This document shows, piece by piece, positions 53,295 to 58,987 of a DNA stretch of 60,650 nucleotides. Location of the stretch: NCBI GenBank assembly GCA_025350045.1, contig JANXYM010000001.1, forward strand, positions 1 through 60,650, written 5' to 3'. This DNA comes from Methanomicrobiales archaeon (GTDB lineage Archaea > Halobacteriota > Methanomicrobia > Methanomicrobiales > Methanospirillaceae). Position numbers and translations under genes: made by a program. Under the pieces are notes generated by a model. That model saw nothing but the letters and a program-made list of their open reading frames with translations, did not search any database and had not been told where the DNA came from. The stretch's first letter is position 1. The number at the start of each line of letters is the position of its first letter.

Positions 53295-54428
53295 TTATAT
53301 GACTTCTATGATCTCCTGCTTGCGGAGCTCGGTCATCTTCTTGTTTACGAAGTACTGGATAACAACGCCAAGAACCGCAGACAGGATGCCAAGTATGGTT
53401 GAGTACACGATGTTGCTTTGTGCAGCTGCGGCATTCAAGGGGAAATCAGGGACGCTGCTTACCGTGATGATATAGACACTGGCCCCGTAGAGAATGAGGC
53501 CGAGGGCGGTGACGAAGAACGGAAATACGATCACCTTTCCGAGTGCTTCCCGCTCATTGACGTATACATCGATGATAACGCCAATGGATGTCACCAGCCC
53601 GGCAACAATCAGCCACTCGATCGAGCCATAGATAAATGTCATCAGGTACAGCAGGATGCCCAGGCTTGAGTCCGATGAGTAATACTTCAGGATATTAATA
53701 AAGCCGGTAGCAAACCCGATGATGATGAGAAGTATCGTTACTGAGTAGGTGATAAACGAGAACCTCCCCCGCGAGAGGGACAACCGGAGTGCTTCCAGCA
53801 CGCCATGGACAATCTCGTCGAATCCGAAGCCTTTGAAGAGCATGTAACTCCCAATCACCCCAACTACGATGATGGTGGCTGTATCGGGATACCCGATCAT
53901 GTACGCGGTGGCATACAGCAGCATCGCAAGCCCGAGGGGAATGAAGATCATCCGTGAGATCTTGGGATCGTCAAATAATTTCTTTAAAATATAGTAGGTT
54001 CCTTCGAGATTGGGCATCTGGTTAACAATGACCCGGGTGATACTGGTTACGGGAATTTTTGACTGGATGATAGGAACTACGTATTCATCTTCGGCGCCAT
54101 CAGAAACAAGGATGCAGTTTGTTGCCTGCGTTTCCTGTACTACCTGCTCCAGGGCGGTAGCAATCCTGCGATCCCCTTCGATCATATGCAGGTGATTGCC
54201 TGCGATCACTGCTATGGCCGTGTCCTCCCCTTTTGCAGTGAGCTCATCGTAGATTTTAACGGCCATGAAGATTGCATTGACATCCGAATCTTCAGGGTCA
54301 GCAAGGGCTAACGTGTTGGCTGCTTTTACTGTCGCCGCTCGGCCAATGACCGGGCTGTCTATTTTACCTTTCCAGCCGATATCATCGTCCCGATCGACAC
54401 TGAGCACCAGTGTCCGCCCTTGTGTCAT
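53295..54428 (-). CDS. DUF373 family membrane protein
   Basis: A 377-residue protein. A soluble N-terminal part (LVLSVDRDDDIGWKGKIDSP, then AVIAGNHLHMIEGDRRIATA and CILVSDGAEDEYVVPIIQSK) is followed by about seven membrane helices from residue 160 on. This is the archaeal DUF373 family, whose N-terminal acidic motifs suggest metal or nucleotide binding; no function is established. It lies downstream of the coiled-coil gene on the same strand. Confidence 0.88.
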   Translation of the reverse strand: MTQGRTLVLSVDRDDDIGWKGKIDSPVIGRAATVKAANTLALADPEDSDVNAIFMAVKIYDELTAKGEDTAIAVIAGNHLHMIEGDRRIATALEQVVQETQATNCILVSDGAEDEYVVPIIQSKIPVTSITRVIVNQMPNLEGTYYILKKLFDDPKISRMIFIPLGLAMLLYATAYMIGYPDTATIIVVGVIGSYMLFKGFGFDEIVHGVLEALRLSLSRGRFSFITYSVTILLIIIGFATGFINILKYYSSDSSLGILLYLMTFIYGSIEWLIVAGLVTSIGVIIDVYVNEREALGKVIVFPFFVTALGLILYGASVYIITVSSVPDFPLNAAAAQSNIVYSTILGILSAVLGVVIQYFVNKKMTELRKQEIIEVI

Positions 54429-54474
54429 TACTAGTATAAAAGAGCAGTAAATCTATTAAACTATTACTGACGGT

Positions 54475-54493
54475 GAAAAAAAGAGATAAAAAA
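54475..54493 (-). terminator. U-tract terminator after the coiled-coil gene
   Basis: On the gene strand: eight T, ATCTC, seven T, right after the stop codon. Confidence 0.6.
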
Positions 54494-54495
54494 AA

Positions 54496-55356
54496 TCAGA
54501 TGAGTTTTGAGCGCTGGAGGAGTAAAATATCGTCGGTGGTAAGTTTTTCTCCGGCCCTGAAATTCTTGAACAGGCTTTCAGCCTCTTTCCTGACCGCTTT
54601 TTGCTCTTTGGTGACTTTGACTTTCTTGGTCTTCTTGCGCAGACCGGATATGACCTTGTCGTAGTCGCGGAGTTCTTTCTGGCAGGCAATAAAGAACTTG
54701 TGCTCTGAATCTGCAGACTCCTGTGCCTCGACAAAACTCTTGTGTGCTGCATCGGCAGCTTCGCGTGACTTGTCTGCCTTGCGGTAGGAATCGACCATCA
54801 GGTCATGGTGCTTCTGGGCAAGTTCCGCTACTTCGGTAACCTTTGCATGCAGATCGGATGCCTCTTTGCGAAATTCGCGGGCTTCCGTGATCTTGGTGCG
54901 CATCTCCTTGTTCTGTTCGAACTCGGCTTCCTGTTCCCGCACCTGGCTGGTCATCTGCTTGATCTTTTCGATCAGCTCGCGTTCCTTGTCGGTGGTGAAG
55001 ACCTCGGTCTGCTGGCGGTACTCCATCATCTCGATCTGTTTCTGGATCTCCTTGGTGCCGCGGCTCTTTGCAGTGCCATGCTCCTTTTTAAACGATTCTA
55101 TCTCCTCAAAAAGAACATTTGCCTTATCATTGAAATCGTTGCGCTGGGCCTTGACATCGAGGACTGACTGGTTATATTTGTCCCTGAGATCCTTGTTCTT
55201 CTGCGCCTCTTCAACAAACTCCCGGGTCTGGTTGTTGAGGGTATTTCTTTCGCGGGCGGACTTGCTTGCAGTTGCATTCAGTTCGTTGCGGCGGTTTTTG
55301 TGTTCTTCAGACTCGGCAAGAGTCTTCTTTCTCTTTTCCATCAGGTCATTCAGCAT
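54496..55356 (-). CDS. coiled-coil protein of unknown function
   Basis: A 286-residue protein that is almost wholly helical and charged (EKRKKTLAESEEHKNRRNEL, then long heptad-like stretches, LRDKYNQSVLDVKAQRNDFN). The C-terminal end is compact (LFKNFRAGEKLTTDDILLLQ). Archaeal proteins of this type are conserved in euryarchaea without a settled role. The start was chosen by GAGGAGTGG seven bases ahead. The message seems to have a leader of about 270 nt with hairpins. Confidence 0.85.
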   Translation of the reverse strand: MLNDLMEKRKKTLAESEEHKNRRNELNATASKSARERNTLNNQTREFVEEAQKNKDLRDKYNQSVLDVKAQRNDFNDKANVLFEEIESFKKEHGTAKSRGTKEIQKQIEMMEYRQQTEVFTTDKERELIEKIKQMTSQVREQEAEFEQNKEMRTKITEAREFRKEASDLHAKVTEVAELAQKHHDLMVDSYRKADKSREAADAAHKSFVEAQESADSEHKFFIACQKELRDYDKVISGLRKKTKKVKVTKEQKAVRKEAESLFKNFRAGEKLTTDDILLLQRSKLI

Positions 55357-55845
55357 GCGGTACCACTCCTCATCAGATTCTCCTGTCCGGGAAGTGCATG
55401 AAGGGTCGGGAGTACAGGTATAAAAAAGAGCAGACACCCTGGCTCTTTTACGCTACTCAAATACCGACTCTGCATGCAGGATGCAGGGTGAAAAACATCA
55501 GAAAATGCAATCGTAGAATTCTTATAAGACCTCAAAGCGAAGTCTTTGTTCAGCACACTGTTCATGATGTTCAACTCCCGATACCCGGTTGTCACCCTGC
55601 TTTCAGGGTGCAACTCCCATCCTCCCAGTGAAGGACAGATCGAATGTACTATATTTTAAAGGAGAGAGGAATTATTAAGCGTTTCGCCATTTTATCTGAA
55701 GTGACCCCAACCCGATATCAGGAAGAGAAAATTCCCTTTCAGGAATTGTTACAAAAAGGATGTTGGTAGTTGGATTAGGCCAACATTTCCCATACATTAC
55801 TGGAGATGTGTGTAGTTTTTAGTTTAGCTGGTATGTACGGTGTGC
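55357..55845. other. 489-nt intergenic region
   Basis: Holds the candidate leader RNA (55421-55628), its TATA box, and AT-rich sequence past the ftsZ stop. A leftward 87-codon frame through the leader has no protein likeness. Confidence 0.5.
55421..55628 (-). ncRNA. candidate structured leader RNA or small RNA
   Basis: On the minus strand a TATA box (TTTAAAATAT, 55651-55660) would start a transcript near 55628. It begins with a strong hairpin: GTTG plus CACCCTG pairs with CAGGGTG plus CAAC (55588-55614, one bulged base). It ends in AAAAGAGC...GCTCTTTT followed by U residues (55422-55449), a terminator-like fold. This lies 65 nt before the coiled-coil start codon. It could be a free small RNA, a premature-termination leader, or just a long leader. 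Confidence 0.4.
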
Positions 55846-57015
55846 TTAACCGACCCATTCAAGAACGCCGCCGCCACTGGCCTGGTCCCTGTTGCCGCTT
55901 CTCTTGCTCTGGGGCATCTCAACTGCCTTTGGATTTGACCGCTTGTTGTCCATATCATTGATCATGGTCTTGTAGGACTGTCGGGTACCGAGGATCTGCG
56001 CGCTCTTGACGCCGGTCATAATGGCGAGTACACGGATCTTACCTTCCATATCACTGCGCACGCGGGCGCCCCAGATCACATCTGCGTGGGGATCGAGTTC
56101 GTACGTGAGTGAGGTTGCTACTTCTTCTGCATCCTGTAAGGTCAAGTCAGTGCCACCGGTGATGTGGATCAGGCTGCCGGTTGCGCCGCGGTAGTCGATG
56201 TCGAGCATCGGGTTGCTTAAGCATTCGCGGACTACGCTCTCTGCCTTGTTCTGCTGCTTGCTCTCACCCACGAGCATGACTGCAACGCCGCCCTTTGACA
56301 TGATGGCACGGACATCTGCGTAGTCGATGTTGATGAGTGACGGCTCGGTGATGGTTTCGGAAATGCCCTTGACGGTCTCACCAATGAGCTGGTCCATGAC
56401 CGAGAATGCCTGGCCGAGTGGCAGGTTGGGGACGAAGTTCTTCAACCGGTTGTTGTCGAGAACAATGACAGAGTCTGCTGCTGCTGCAAGTGCCTCAAGA
56501 CCTTCTTCTGCACGGATCAAACGGGCCTTTTCAACCTGGAACGGGTAGCTGACCATCCCGACGACAATTGCGCCCTGCTCTTTTGCGATTGATGCGACAA
56601 CGGGGGCTGAACCGGTACCGGTACCTCCACCCATACCTGCGGTGATAAAGACTAGGTCTGCGGATTCCAGGATTGCCTCAAGTGTCGGGCGTGCCATCTC
56701 AGCTGCACGTTTACCGACATCGGGGTATCCACCAGCGCCAAGCCCTTTGGTTAAGGATTTACCAATCAGGATACGCTTGTCGGCCTGAATCATGTCCAGG
56801 TGCTGCTTGTCGGTGTTGATTGCAATCGTCTCTGCACCGGAAACACCCATGTGGTGGATACGGTTCACGGTGTTGTTGCCAGCGCCACCGCATCCGATAA
56901 TGACGATACGTGGCTGACCGCAGAAGTCTTCATCCAGTTCATTTGATTTGCCGGCCTTGTTTATCTCTTTCTCAAGATCGGCGTTTTTTAAAGCGTCGTT
57001 AATAATGCTCTGCAT
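55846..57015 (-). CDS. ftsZ: cell division protein FtsZ
   Basis: A 389-residue tubulin-like GTPase. The nucleotide-binding regions are intact: [20 protein letters not shown], the tubulin signature [15 protein letters not shown], the T7-loop area [13 protein letters not shown] and [10 protein letters not shown] basic linker leads to the C-terminal GGGVLEWVG, the FtsZ1-like tail that binds membrane partners. It polymerises into the division ring. An RHH regulator gene ends 10 nt upstream, so the two are one operon. Confidence 0.97.
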
Positions 57016-57025
57016 GTTTACCCTC

Positions 57026-57205
57026 TCAAACCTTGAATGAAACCTGGTCGCTCTCCTTTAAGACACGGTTTGCACGTTTTTCAACAAGTTCGCGGACCGC
57101 CGCCCGGACAGCTTCAGAGATGTTGGGATATTCTCCCGTGTCTACGATCTGCTGGAGCAGATTGATTTGCTGTTCAGGCAACCGGAGCGTGATTCTTTGC
57201 ATCAT
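57026..57205 (-). CDS. cdrS: RHH transcriptional regulator, CdrS-like
   Basis: A 59-residue ribbon-helix-helix protein: [20 protein letters not shown] forms the strand and first helix, then [20 protein letters not shown] the second helix, and a short tail. GAGGT precedes the ATG. It sits directly before ftsZ. In haloarchaea, a short RHH protein (CdrS) is encoded with an ftsZ gene and controls division genes; size and context match. Orthology is inferred, so the symbol is tentative. Inverted repeats upstream are likely its own operator. Confidence 0.85.
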
Positions 57206-57219
57206 TTTACCTCACGTTT

Positions 57220-57279
57220 CTGACATGTGTCTGCTTTTTGTCATTCACATGTCAGACAATGCGTGTCTTTCTGTCTGAC
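57220..57279. promoter_or_regulatory. palindromic operator candidate upstream of cdrS-ftsZ
   Basis: CTGACATGTG (57220-57229) and CACATGTCAG (57246-57255) form a perfect 10-bp inverted repeat. GTCAGACA (57251-57258) and TGTCTGAC (57272-57279) form another, and TGTCTG recurs at 57228. This array lies between the likely TATA box (GGTATTTATACC on the gene strand, near 57315) and the start codon, as expected for RHH self-repression. Confidence 0.7.
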
Positions 57280-57307
57280 TTAACCAGATGAATCAAAATT
57301 AAACATT

Positions 57308-57322
57308 AAGGTATAAATACCT
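57308..57322 (-). promoter_or_regulatory. TATA box of the cdrS-ftsZ operon
   Basis: On the minus strand GGTATTTATACCTT fits an archaeal TATA box. Transcription would begin near 57285, just upstream of the palindrome array. Confidence 0.5.
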
Positions 57323-57401: not shown

Positions 57402-58400
57402 TTGGCTGTTGACTTTCCAAAACGTGTGGTTCATGGGGGCACCGGAAAGCGACACCTCGAAAAAACCCGGAAAAAAGTGCTGGATTTCAGCGCGAGTGTC
57501 AATCCGTTCCCCCCGCAGTTTGCATGGCACTGCAATCCGTCACTCCTCGCTTCGTATCCTGATGATTCTTATTATGAGCTCAAGGAACGCATAGGCGCAA
57601 CGTTTCACCGTAAGCCCGAAGAGATCTGCGTAGGGAACGGCTCGATAGAGCTGATCAGGGTTTTTTGTCAGGTTGTGCTCCGCGGGGACAAACATTTTTT
57701 TTGCGAATCGCCGACTTTTGGTGAATATGCCTTGTCCGCCCGTCTTGCCGGTGCTGTACCGGTTGACAATCCTGTACAGGCTGATGTCTCATTCATCTGC
57801 AATCCCAATAATCCGACCGGCATATTATTGGACAGAAAGGAGCTTTTGCAGAAACTCTCTGCAATGAAGTTGCACGAAGGGATGCTCTTTTGCGATGAAG
57901 CGTTTATCGGCCTGTCCGATCCCCGAGAGAGCCTTGCTGATATATCAGATCCCCATCTTTTTGTCCTGCACTCGCTCACCAAAAGTTTCTCGGTACCGGG
58001 AATACGGTTCGGTTTTGGCTTTGGCCCGCCCGGTCTGATTGAGCAGATAGAAATTTCCCGTCCCCCGTGGAGCGTGAATGCCTTTGCCGAGGCTTTTGCC
58101 ATGGAGGCGCTCGTTCATATGCAGGATCTCGAGGCTTCGCGTGAGAAGATCCAAAAGGAACGTGACTGGCTCTCTCAGGAGATCACCGCACGGGGATTGC
58201 GCTGTCATCCGTCTCTGGTGAATTATATTCTCGTGGAATGCAACAGGGATGTCACCCGGCTCTGCGAGTGCCTGGCAGAACGGTCAATTCTGGTGAGGGA
58301 CTGTACATCCTTCGGTCTGCCCACCTGTATCCGGGTTGCGGTCAGAACCCACGATGAAAATATCCGGCTCATGGAGACGTTAGCTGCATGCTTGCCCTGA
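57402..58400 (+). CDS. cobD: CobD-like PLP enzyme (threonine-phosphate decarboxylase / histidinol-phosphate aminotransferase family)
   Basis: A 332-residue class I/II PLP enzyme. LDFSASVNPFPPQF and VGNGSIELIRVFCQV are CobD-like; FICNPNNPTGILL and the PLP-binding Lys in LHSLTKSFSVPGIRFGFG are family-wide. CobD makes aminopropanol phosphate for the cobamide nucleotide loop. The next gene, cobY, works in the same branch, favouring CobD over HisC. Start is TTG, supported by GGAGGGATT seven bases ahead. Confidence 0.88.
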   Translation: MAVDFPKRVVHGGTGKRHLEKTRKKVLDFSASVNPFPPQFAWHCNPSLLASYPDDSYYELKERIGATFHRKPEEICVGNGSIELIRVFCQVVLRGDKHFFCESPTFGEYALSARLAGAVPVDNPVQADVSFICNPNNPTGILLDRKELLQKLSAMKLHEGMLFCDEAFIGLSDPRESLADISDPHLFVLHSLTKSFSVPGIRFGFGFGPPGLIEQIEISRPPWSVNAFAEAFAMEALVHMQDLEASREKIQKERDWLSQEITARGLRCHPSLVNYILVECNRDVTRLCECLAERSILVRDCTSFGLPTCIRVAVRTHDENIRLMETLAACLP

Positions 58401-58987
58401 TCATGGCAGGGGGAGCCGGGAGCAGGCTCAACCTCGGGGAAAAACCGCTTATTATGATCGGCAGGCAACCCCTGATCTCCTATGTGATCGATGCATTCAA
58501 AGGAGCGGGGTGCACTCCCGTGGTGGCAACTTCACACCGGACTCCCATGACGCAGAACTGGTGCCGGGTTCAGGGAGTAGAATTCTGCAAAACGGAAGGA
58601 GCGGGGTATATCGACGATATGATACGTGCAGTACGGATGCTTGATGAAGAAAAACCGCTGTTTGTCAGCGCCTCAGATATTCCCGGCATTACACCGGCAA
58701 TAATCCATACGATCTCCGGTGCTTATCGCACCAGCGGAAAAGATGCCTGTTCGGTCTGGGTGCCCGCTCCTCGGGGAATATCAGATACTGAAGGAATGCC
58801 CTACCGCGAGGAGATAAGGGGAATCATGGCATGCCCGGCGGGTGTTAATATCCTGCGGGGGTCTCTTATTGAACAACCCCAGGACGAACTGCAGCTGCTT
58901 CTGGAAGAACCCCGGCTGGCTATCAATGTCAACACCCGGGCGAACCTGGCTGAGGCTGAACTCTTCTTAAAAAACGATCTCTCATAA
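58388..58987 (+). CDS. cobY: adenosylcobinamide-phosphate guanylyltransferase
   Basis: A 199-residue nucleotidyltransferase. It starts LALIMAGGAGSRLNLGEKPL, the NTP-binding signature, and has FVSASDIPGITPAIIHTIS and the C-terminal INVNTRANLAEAE typical of archaeal CobY. It activates adenosylcobinamide phosphate with GTP. The ATG overlaps the end of the CobD-like gene by 13 nt. Confidence 0.94.
   Translation: MLALIMAGGAGSRLNLGEKPLIMIGRQPLISYVIDAFKGAGCTPVVATSHRTPMTQNWCRVQGVEFCKTEGAGYIDDMIRAVRMLDEEKPLFVSASDIPGITPAIIHTISGAYRTSGKDACSVWVPAPRGISDTEGMPYREEIRGIMACPAGVNILRGSLIEQPQDELQLLLEEPRLAINVNTRANLAEAELFLKNDLS

Follow-up and report, generated by a model that had tools for sequence, protein, structure and literature searches.

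The leader of the cdrS-ftsZ gene pair in this methanogen holds a row of short palindromic boxes, GTCWGAC, which are very probably the DNA target of CdrS, the small ribbon-helix-helix (RHH) protein encoded by the first gene of the pair. These boxes are kept with the gene through the order to which the window (the whole stretch of 60,650 nucleotides analysed here) belongs, and haloarchaeal CdrS ChIP positions coincide with boxes of this same kind, again 11 bp apart; on these grounds the claim made in a preliminary description of this DNA, that the boxes are the regulator's target, is supported. Taken as a whole, the explanation that we consider likely is that the leader is an array operator for CdrS itself, on which a row of dimers would bring about negative autoregulation.

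On the minus strand of the window the order is TATA box, a leader of ~85 nt, the 59-aa RHH gene, a 10-nt gap, and ftsZ:

57312-57319 (-), TATA box TATTTATA of the cdrS-ftsZ promoter, from the sequence
~57290 (-), predicted transcription start, placed by the usual TATA spacing
57026-57205 (-), cdrS homolog encoding a 59-aa RHH regulator (ATG start; Pfam RHH_1)
57016-57025 (-), gap between cdrS and ftsZ with GAGGGT, a likely ftsZ ribosome-binding site, from the sequence
55846-57015 (-), ftsZ (ftsZ2 type), probable co-transcribed partner of cdrS (TIGR00065, 1.6e-123)

The 59-residue RHH gene 10 nt before ftsZ had been noticed previously, and the open reading frames and domain matches bear it out: the protein matches Pfam RHH_1 (E 5.3e-7, exceeding the gathering cut-off) as a single-domain RHH protein of CdrS size (~55-63 aa), and the ftsZ product matches the Pfam Tubulin/FtsZ and FtsZ_C domains. 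Its earlier label, CdrS-like, also holds. Against the CdrS model NF058555 (TransRegCdrSHalo) it scores 70 bits (E 1.3e-19), short of the 100 bits required by this haloarchaeal equivalog, a cut-off reached in 0 of 159 genomes of the window's order; judged by its sequence, the protein is a CdrS homolog of a non-haloarchaeal type, outside the NF058555 equivalog. The neighboring FtsZ is 63-66% identical to haloarchaeal cdrS-linked FtsZ2, vs. 44-47% to FtsZ1, and cdrS thus lies directly upstream of an FtsZ2-type gene on the same strand, the arrangement of the cdrS-ftsZ2 module. The DNA-facing strand, assigned by analogy with other RHH proteins, reads R4-T6-R8 and fits the R-x-T-x-R pattern of CdrS. 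A PDB search by sequence returned just weak ParD/NikR-like RHH relatives.

Divergent from cdrS (57402-58987, plus strand) are a gene resembling cobD, for threonine-phosphate decarboxylase, with a TTG start codon, and one for a cobY/MobA-like nucleotidyltransferase. Since CdrS is reported to affect cobalamin biosynthesis in H. volcanii (PMC8406309), a control region common to cdrS and these genes is conceivable. Downstream of ftsZ (53295-55437, minus strand) are genes for DUF7121 and DUF373 proteins.

The leader itself contains the following, with slots numbered from the first box:

57273-57279 (-), slot 0, putative operator box GTCAGAC, 7 of 7 matches
57262-57268 (-), slot 11, degenerate AGACACG; no box in the window, box-like in a few other lineages
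57251-57257 (-), slot 22, putative operator box GTCTGAC, 7 of 7
57240-57246 (-), slot 33, putative operator box GAATGAC, 5 of 7
57229-57235 (-), slot 44, putative operator box AGCAGAC, 5 of 7
57218-57224 (-), slot 55, putative operator box GTCAGAA, 6 of 7
57220-57255, inverted repeat CTGACATGTG-N16-CACATGTCAG, made of boxes 22 and 55 plus spacers
57252-57279, inverted repeat GTCAGACA/TGTCTGAC

The array repeats GTC-W-GAC, an odd palindrome of 7 bp, with an AT-rich spacer of 4 bp after it, giving a period of 11 bp, or one helical turn; the slots used in the window are 0, 22, 33, 44, and 55. The entire window contains two exact copies of GTCWGAC (5.4 expected), both in the cdrS leader and 22 bp apart. 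The inverted repeats previously described between TATA box and start codon are present, and the longer one does not recur in shuffled sequence (CTGACATGTG-N16-CACATGTCAG has 1 match in the window vs. 0 in 100 dinucleotide-preserving shuffles, even with 3 mismatches allowed), but their interpretation as two nested inverted repeats does not stand: the nesting arises because self-palindromic boxes and self-complementary spacers (ATAT, AATT) recur every 11 bp, and the underlying unit is the 11-bp-phased array. A promoter flanked by short palindromes that repeat at a fixed distance, in phase with the helix, is the arrangement of tandem operators of the Arc/MetJ/RelB type. A further conserved stretch, TCATCTGGTTA / TATCTG (57280-57292, minus strand), separates the TATA box from slot 0 close to the predicted start, and most of the order's genera have it at the same place; it may belong to the operator or serve as an initiator element.

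Conservation of the boxes in relatives had been named beforehand as a test of their assignment to the regulator, and throughout the order the boxes are indeed kept with it. Of the 159 order genomes with completeness of at least 85%, 157 contain a cdrS homolog (in a few, the sole match is weak). Among 115 leaders compared, from 35 genera in six families, all in the window's order, nearly all have the 11-bp box row, with a few incomplete arrays (L106, L115). When each genus is represented by a single leader, 140 boxes match at 6 or more of the 7 positions (in shuffles, a mean of 6.6 and at most 14), and the distance within a box pair is 11, 22, 33, 44, or 55 bp in 189 of 227 cases (in shuffles, a mean of 0.025 and at most 1). 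Slots 0, 22, and 55 are the strictest, and slot 11 is mostly empty. One leader from the window's family (L087) reads GTCAGAC-N15-GACTGAC-aaat-GTCAGAC-aatt-GTCAGAC-aatt-GTCATAT.

Related, partly degenerate box rows also precede ftsZ-linked cdrS genes in other families of the phylum: leaders L400 and L401 have eight slots at 11 bp, and L410, L411, L402-L404, L407, and L408 have shorter or less regular rows. The strand residues are R-T-R in 150 of 153 CdrS homologs and K-S-R in the other three, all from one other family (L404, L407, L408). Two of these three are preceded by GTCGGAC/GTCCGAC-type boxes, in which the middle base is G or C; this hints weakly that box and protein have co-evolved, with a possible change in specificity.

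Two independent lines point to CdrS as the reader of the array. The first is the location of the double box: in 108 genomes of the family, 16 exact copies of GTCWGAC-N4-GTCWGAC fall, judging by position, at the cdrS leader and 5 lie elsewhere, while the reversed control pattern has 4 copies.

The second is provided by the haloarchaea. Of 80 haloarchaeal ftsZ1 promoters, obtained from a scan of named genomes, 77 contain two GTCNGAC boxes; 70 of the pairs have a spacing of 11, vs. 5 for all other spacings between 8 and 30. The center of the pair is a median 23.5 bp upstream of the TATA center, and the general TATA-to-start distance in archaea is ~26 bp, so these boxes lie at about -50, which is the published CdrS position. 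H. volcanii CdrS ChIP-seq yielded 18 sites, including ftsZ1 at -50 and psmB at -72 (PMC8406309 Table 1), with positions given from the start site and counted at the motif's 10th nt (PMC8406309). At psmB, four Haloferax species have a single perfect box accompanied by a half-site, 84 nt upstream of the ATG, or at about -71 (start estimated from TATA, as throughout), against the published -72. An exact GTCWGAC double box was also found in one haloarchaeon between citrate synthase and the threonine ammonia-lyase gene, the latter a published H. volcanii CdrS target (PMC8406309). GTCWGAC is matched to the ChIP sites by where they lie and by which genes they belong to, not by the letters of the motif.

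A further haloarchaeal scan gave other sites: in three genomes, exact CdrS-type double boxes lie beside genes for DUF7139 membrane proteins (L321 and L326) or for a similar-looking one (L320). One exact pair near a presumed dacZ was dropped, the gene being methenyl-H4MPT cyclohydrolase. A one-mismatch scan of H. denitrificans (43 sites vs. 1 for the control) was inflated by GC-rich coding sequence, and just its sites near published targets were used.

Within the order, a second 11-bp array in Methanoregula-like genomes (a label inferred from relatives and gene content) is a candidate CdrS target by its boxes. It precedes a conserved ORF of ~105 aa (MSGEIYQAQVIRNFFECITGTDRNLTRIYMCVMSLAKLRME; MSGEIYQAQVIRNFF) without a confident family, and in the window's own genome (G000, contig C23:10669-10686; L367:1490-1520) reads GTATGAC-ggtt-GTCATAC-aatt-GTCTGAC. 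It is present in 7 of 9 searched genomes of the genus; further loci are L356, L357, L358, L361, L362, and L368. Two wider regulons were considered but rejected. As a single site, TGTCWGACA occurs 10 times in the genome of the window, vs. 5 for a reversed control pattern, and the loci inspected include no division gene other than ftsZ; for a broad two-box regulon across the 108 family genomes, exact pairs outside the leader number 5, vs. 4 for the control.

How CdrS might act on its own leader can be pictured from other members of its fold. RHH dimers grip short palindromes by a beta-ribbon, often cooperatively in tandem. We infer that the 59-aa protein would bind these boxes, would do so cooperatively, would repress rather than activate, and would in this way affect the level of FtsZ. 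At every GTC-W-GAC the major groove would take up the two-stranded beta-ribbon of one CdrS dimer, with R4, T6, and R8 from each chain; since the boxes repeat every 11 bp, neighboring dimers would lie on one face of the DNA and could bind cooperatively. The array, beginning ~36 bp after the TATA center, would span the transcript from about +10 to +70, and dimers lined up there would block promoter escape or elongation. The result would be negative autoregulation of cdrS and the co-transcribed ftsZ, with FtsZ held near a set point.

It is the position of the array downstream of the TATA box that suggests autorepression: in the genera examined it starts a median 36 bp downstream of the TATA center (101 leaders), and in archaea a factor that binds at the promoter or beyond it is usually a repressor (PMC8406309). 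The same position argues against the best-surviving alternative, that CdrS, once on the array, activates transcription or changes sign with its level or with a ligand, rather than simply repressing. Haloarchaeal CdrS is mainly an activator: it activates ftsZ1 from sites upstream of the TATA box, and deletion or depletion of cdrS lowers ftsZ2 expression (PMC8406309, PMC7439475). The second Methanoregula-like array, too, is upstream of a TATA-like stretch. With the cdrS array on the usually repressive side, we think activation or such a switch unlikely, and retain autorepression.

Autoregulation is in any case no known property of CdrS, its own promoter being missing from the H. volcanii ChIP data: cdrS is not among the 18 sites (PMC8406309). 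The preliminary description had proposed that this methanogen uses the same module as haloarchaea; this is correct for the pairing of a cdrS homolog with ftsZ, but not for the wiring, given the absence of cdrS from the H. volcanii list. In H. salinarum the cdrS promoter is instead bound by a paralogous RHH protein, CdrL (PMC7439475), and 21 of 27 haloarchaeal cdrS leaders (L177-L202) have another box downstream of the TATA box, GTAAGAC-N4-GTCTTAC, also an 11-bp pair, to which additional GTAAGAC/GTCTTAC half-pairs are often added close to the start codon. Most of these leaders have a cdrL-type gene upstream, with a product starting MSKITFRADDD. GTAAGAC-N4-GTCTTAC is a candidate for the CdrL operator.

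These haloarchaeal leaders raise the question of whether the methanogen array might likewise be the operator of a different transcription factor regulating cdrS-ftsZ, with CdrS not its binder. Such a factor is improbable: CdrL is reported only in Halobacteria and absent from other clades (PMC7439475), the methanogen boxes match the haloarchaeal ftsZ1 and psmB sites and not the GTAAGAC box, the recurrent partner of the array is cdrS itself, and the window's genome has just one significant CdrS-like protein. It would appear that control of the haloarchaeal cdrS leader went from CdrS to CdrL, its paralog, and that the 11-bp spacing survived this while the box did not. A more ambitious version, to which we would give slightly less than an even chance, is that the array is the ancestral autoregulatory operator of the phylum, a cooperative one-face row of CdrS setting the level of FtsZ; in the haloarchaea CdrL would have taken the leader over, again with spacing kept and box changed, freeing CdrS to become a global activator.

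As a last possibility, the leader might act as RNA, a 5′ UTR hairpin controlling mRNA stability or the translation of ftsZ or cdrS, with the repeats as stem arms. The window leader does fold better than shuffles (z -2.8). In Methanoregula-like genera (g1+g8), spacers 1 and 3 pair perfectly in every one of the 41 distinct sequences, among which are three compensatory pairs and two cases of G-U, and one leader (L140, G112) is a near-perfect 20-bp dyad, GTCTGACAAGAAGCTGCTCATGAGCAGCTTCTTGTCAGA, with symmetry beyond what the boxes alone need. Against this, in 27 leaders folded, the favored pairing partner varies by genus (22-55, 0-22, 22-33, 44-55): the boxes and the 11-bp grid are conserved whereas no single fold is kept across relatives, strict spacer pairing being limited to the g1+g8 clade. 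A pairing permutation test found no covariation of the central bases of boxes 22 and 55 outside the Methanoregula-like genera, and an Rfam search of the leader gave no family near significance. Identical boxes with identical spacing also lie upstream of the TATA box, and so untranscribed, at haloarchaeal ftsZ1. Because the RNA partners shift and the ftsZ1 boxes are not transcribed, we take DNA binding as the primary function; RNA control in its place is very unlikely, and an RNA role is a minor rival, possibly an additional one in the Methanoregula-like clade.

The array bears on how archaea set the amount of their division protein: it predicts direct autoregulation of ftsZ in a large order of methanogens. 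A CdrS binding code of GTCWGAC every 11 bp would link published haloarchaeal ChIP sites to the methanogens, and the transfer of an operator site from a regulator to its paralog would be a concrete case of network rewiring. The cdrS-ftsZ2 pair and its spread were already published in 2020-2021 (PMC7439475, PMC8406309). The literature searched, from which subscription journals and preprints were excluded, has no description of the box code, the 11-bp grid, its breadth, the methanogen array, or its match to haloarchaeal sites, nor of the autoregulatory wiring, the second Methanoregula-like target, or the GTAAGAC-N4-GTCTTAC replacement box.

Among known systems, the closest is the haloarchaeal cdrS-ftsZ2 pair of H. 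salinarum and H. volcanii, which has the same short single-domain RHH gene directly before an ftsZ2-type ftsZ (PMC7439475, PMC8406309), an R-T-R strand, and GTCWGAC boxes 11 bp apart at the CdrS-regulated ftsZ1 and psmB. It differs in having these boxes upstream of the TATA box at other genes, where the methanogen has them downstream, in the leader of cdrS itself; in its own cdrS leader, with GTAAGAC-N4-GTCTTAC and an upstream cdrL, while the methanogen locus has no cdrL-type neighbor; and in the protein, the window's scoring 70 bits against the 100-bit equivalog cut-off. CdrL is likewise of the RHH fold and acts at a cdrS leader, one in which a pair of palindromic half-boxes has the 11-bp spacing (21 of 27 leaders examined), but is a longer RHH and zinc-ribbon protein, reported in Halobacteria only, with a K-T-R strand and, if our assignment is right, a GTAAGAC box. 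The bacterial RHH autorepressors Arc, MetJ, CopG, and RelB share short boxes in helical phase and, as would be expected here, adjacent dimers on one face and autoregulation; for RelB, same-face binding to four 6-bp repeats, with strict half-site spacing, has been demonstrated (PMC2812701). Unlike these, the cdrS row is longer (five slots used, and up to eight), with a fixed 11-bp grid and an odd 7-bp palindrome, and is placed on an archaeal TATA/TFB promoter and tied to a tubulin-family division gene, with no toxin or ligand known.
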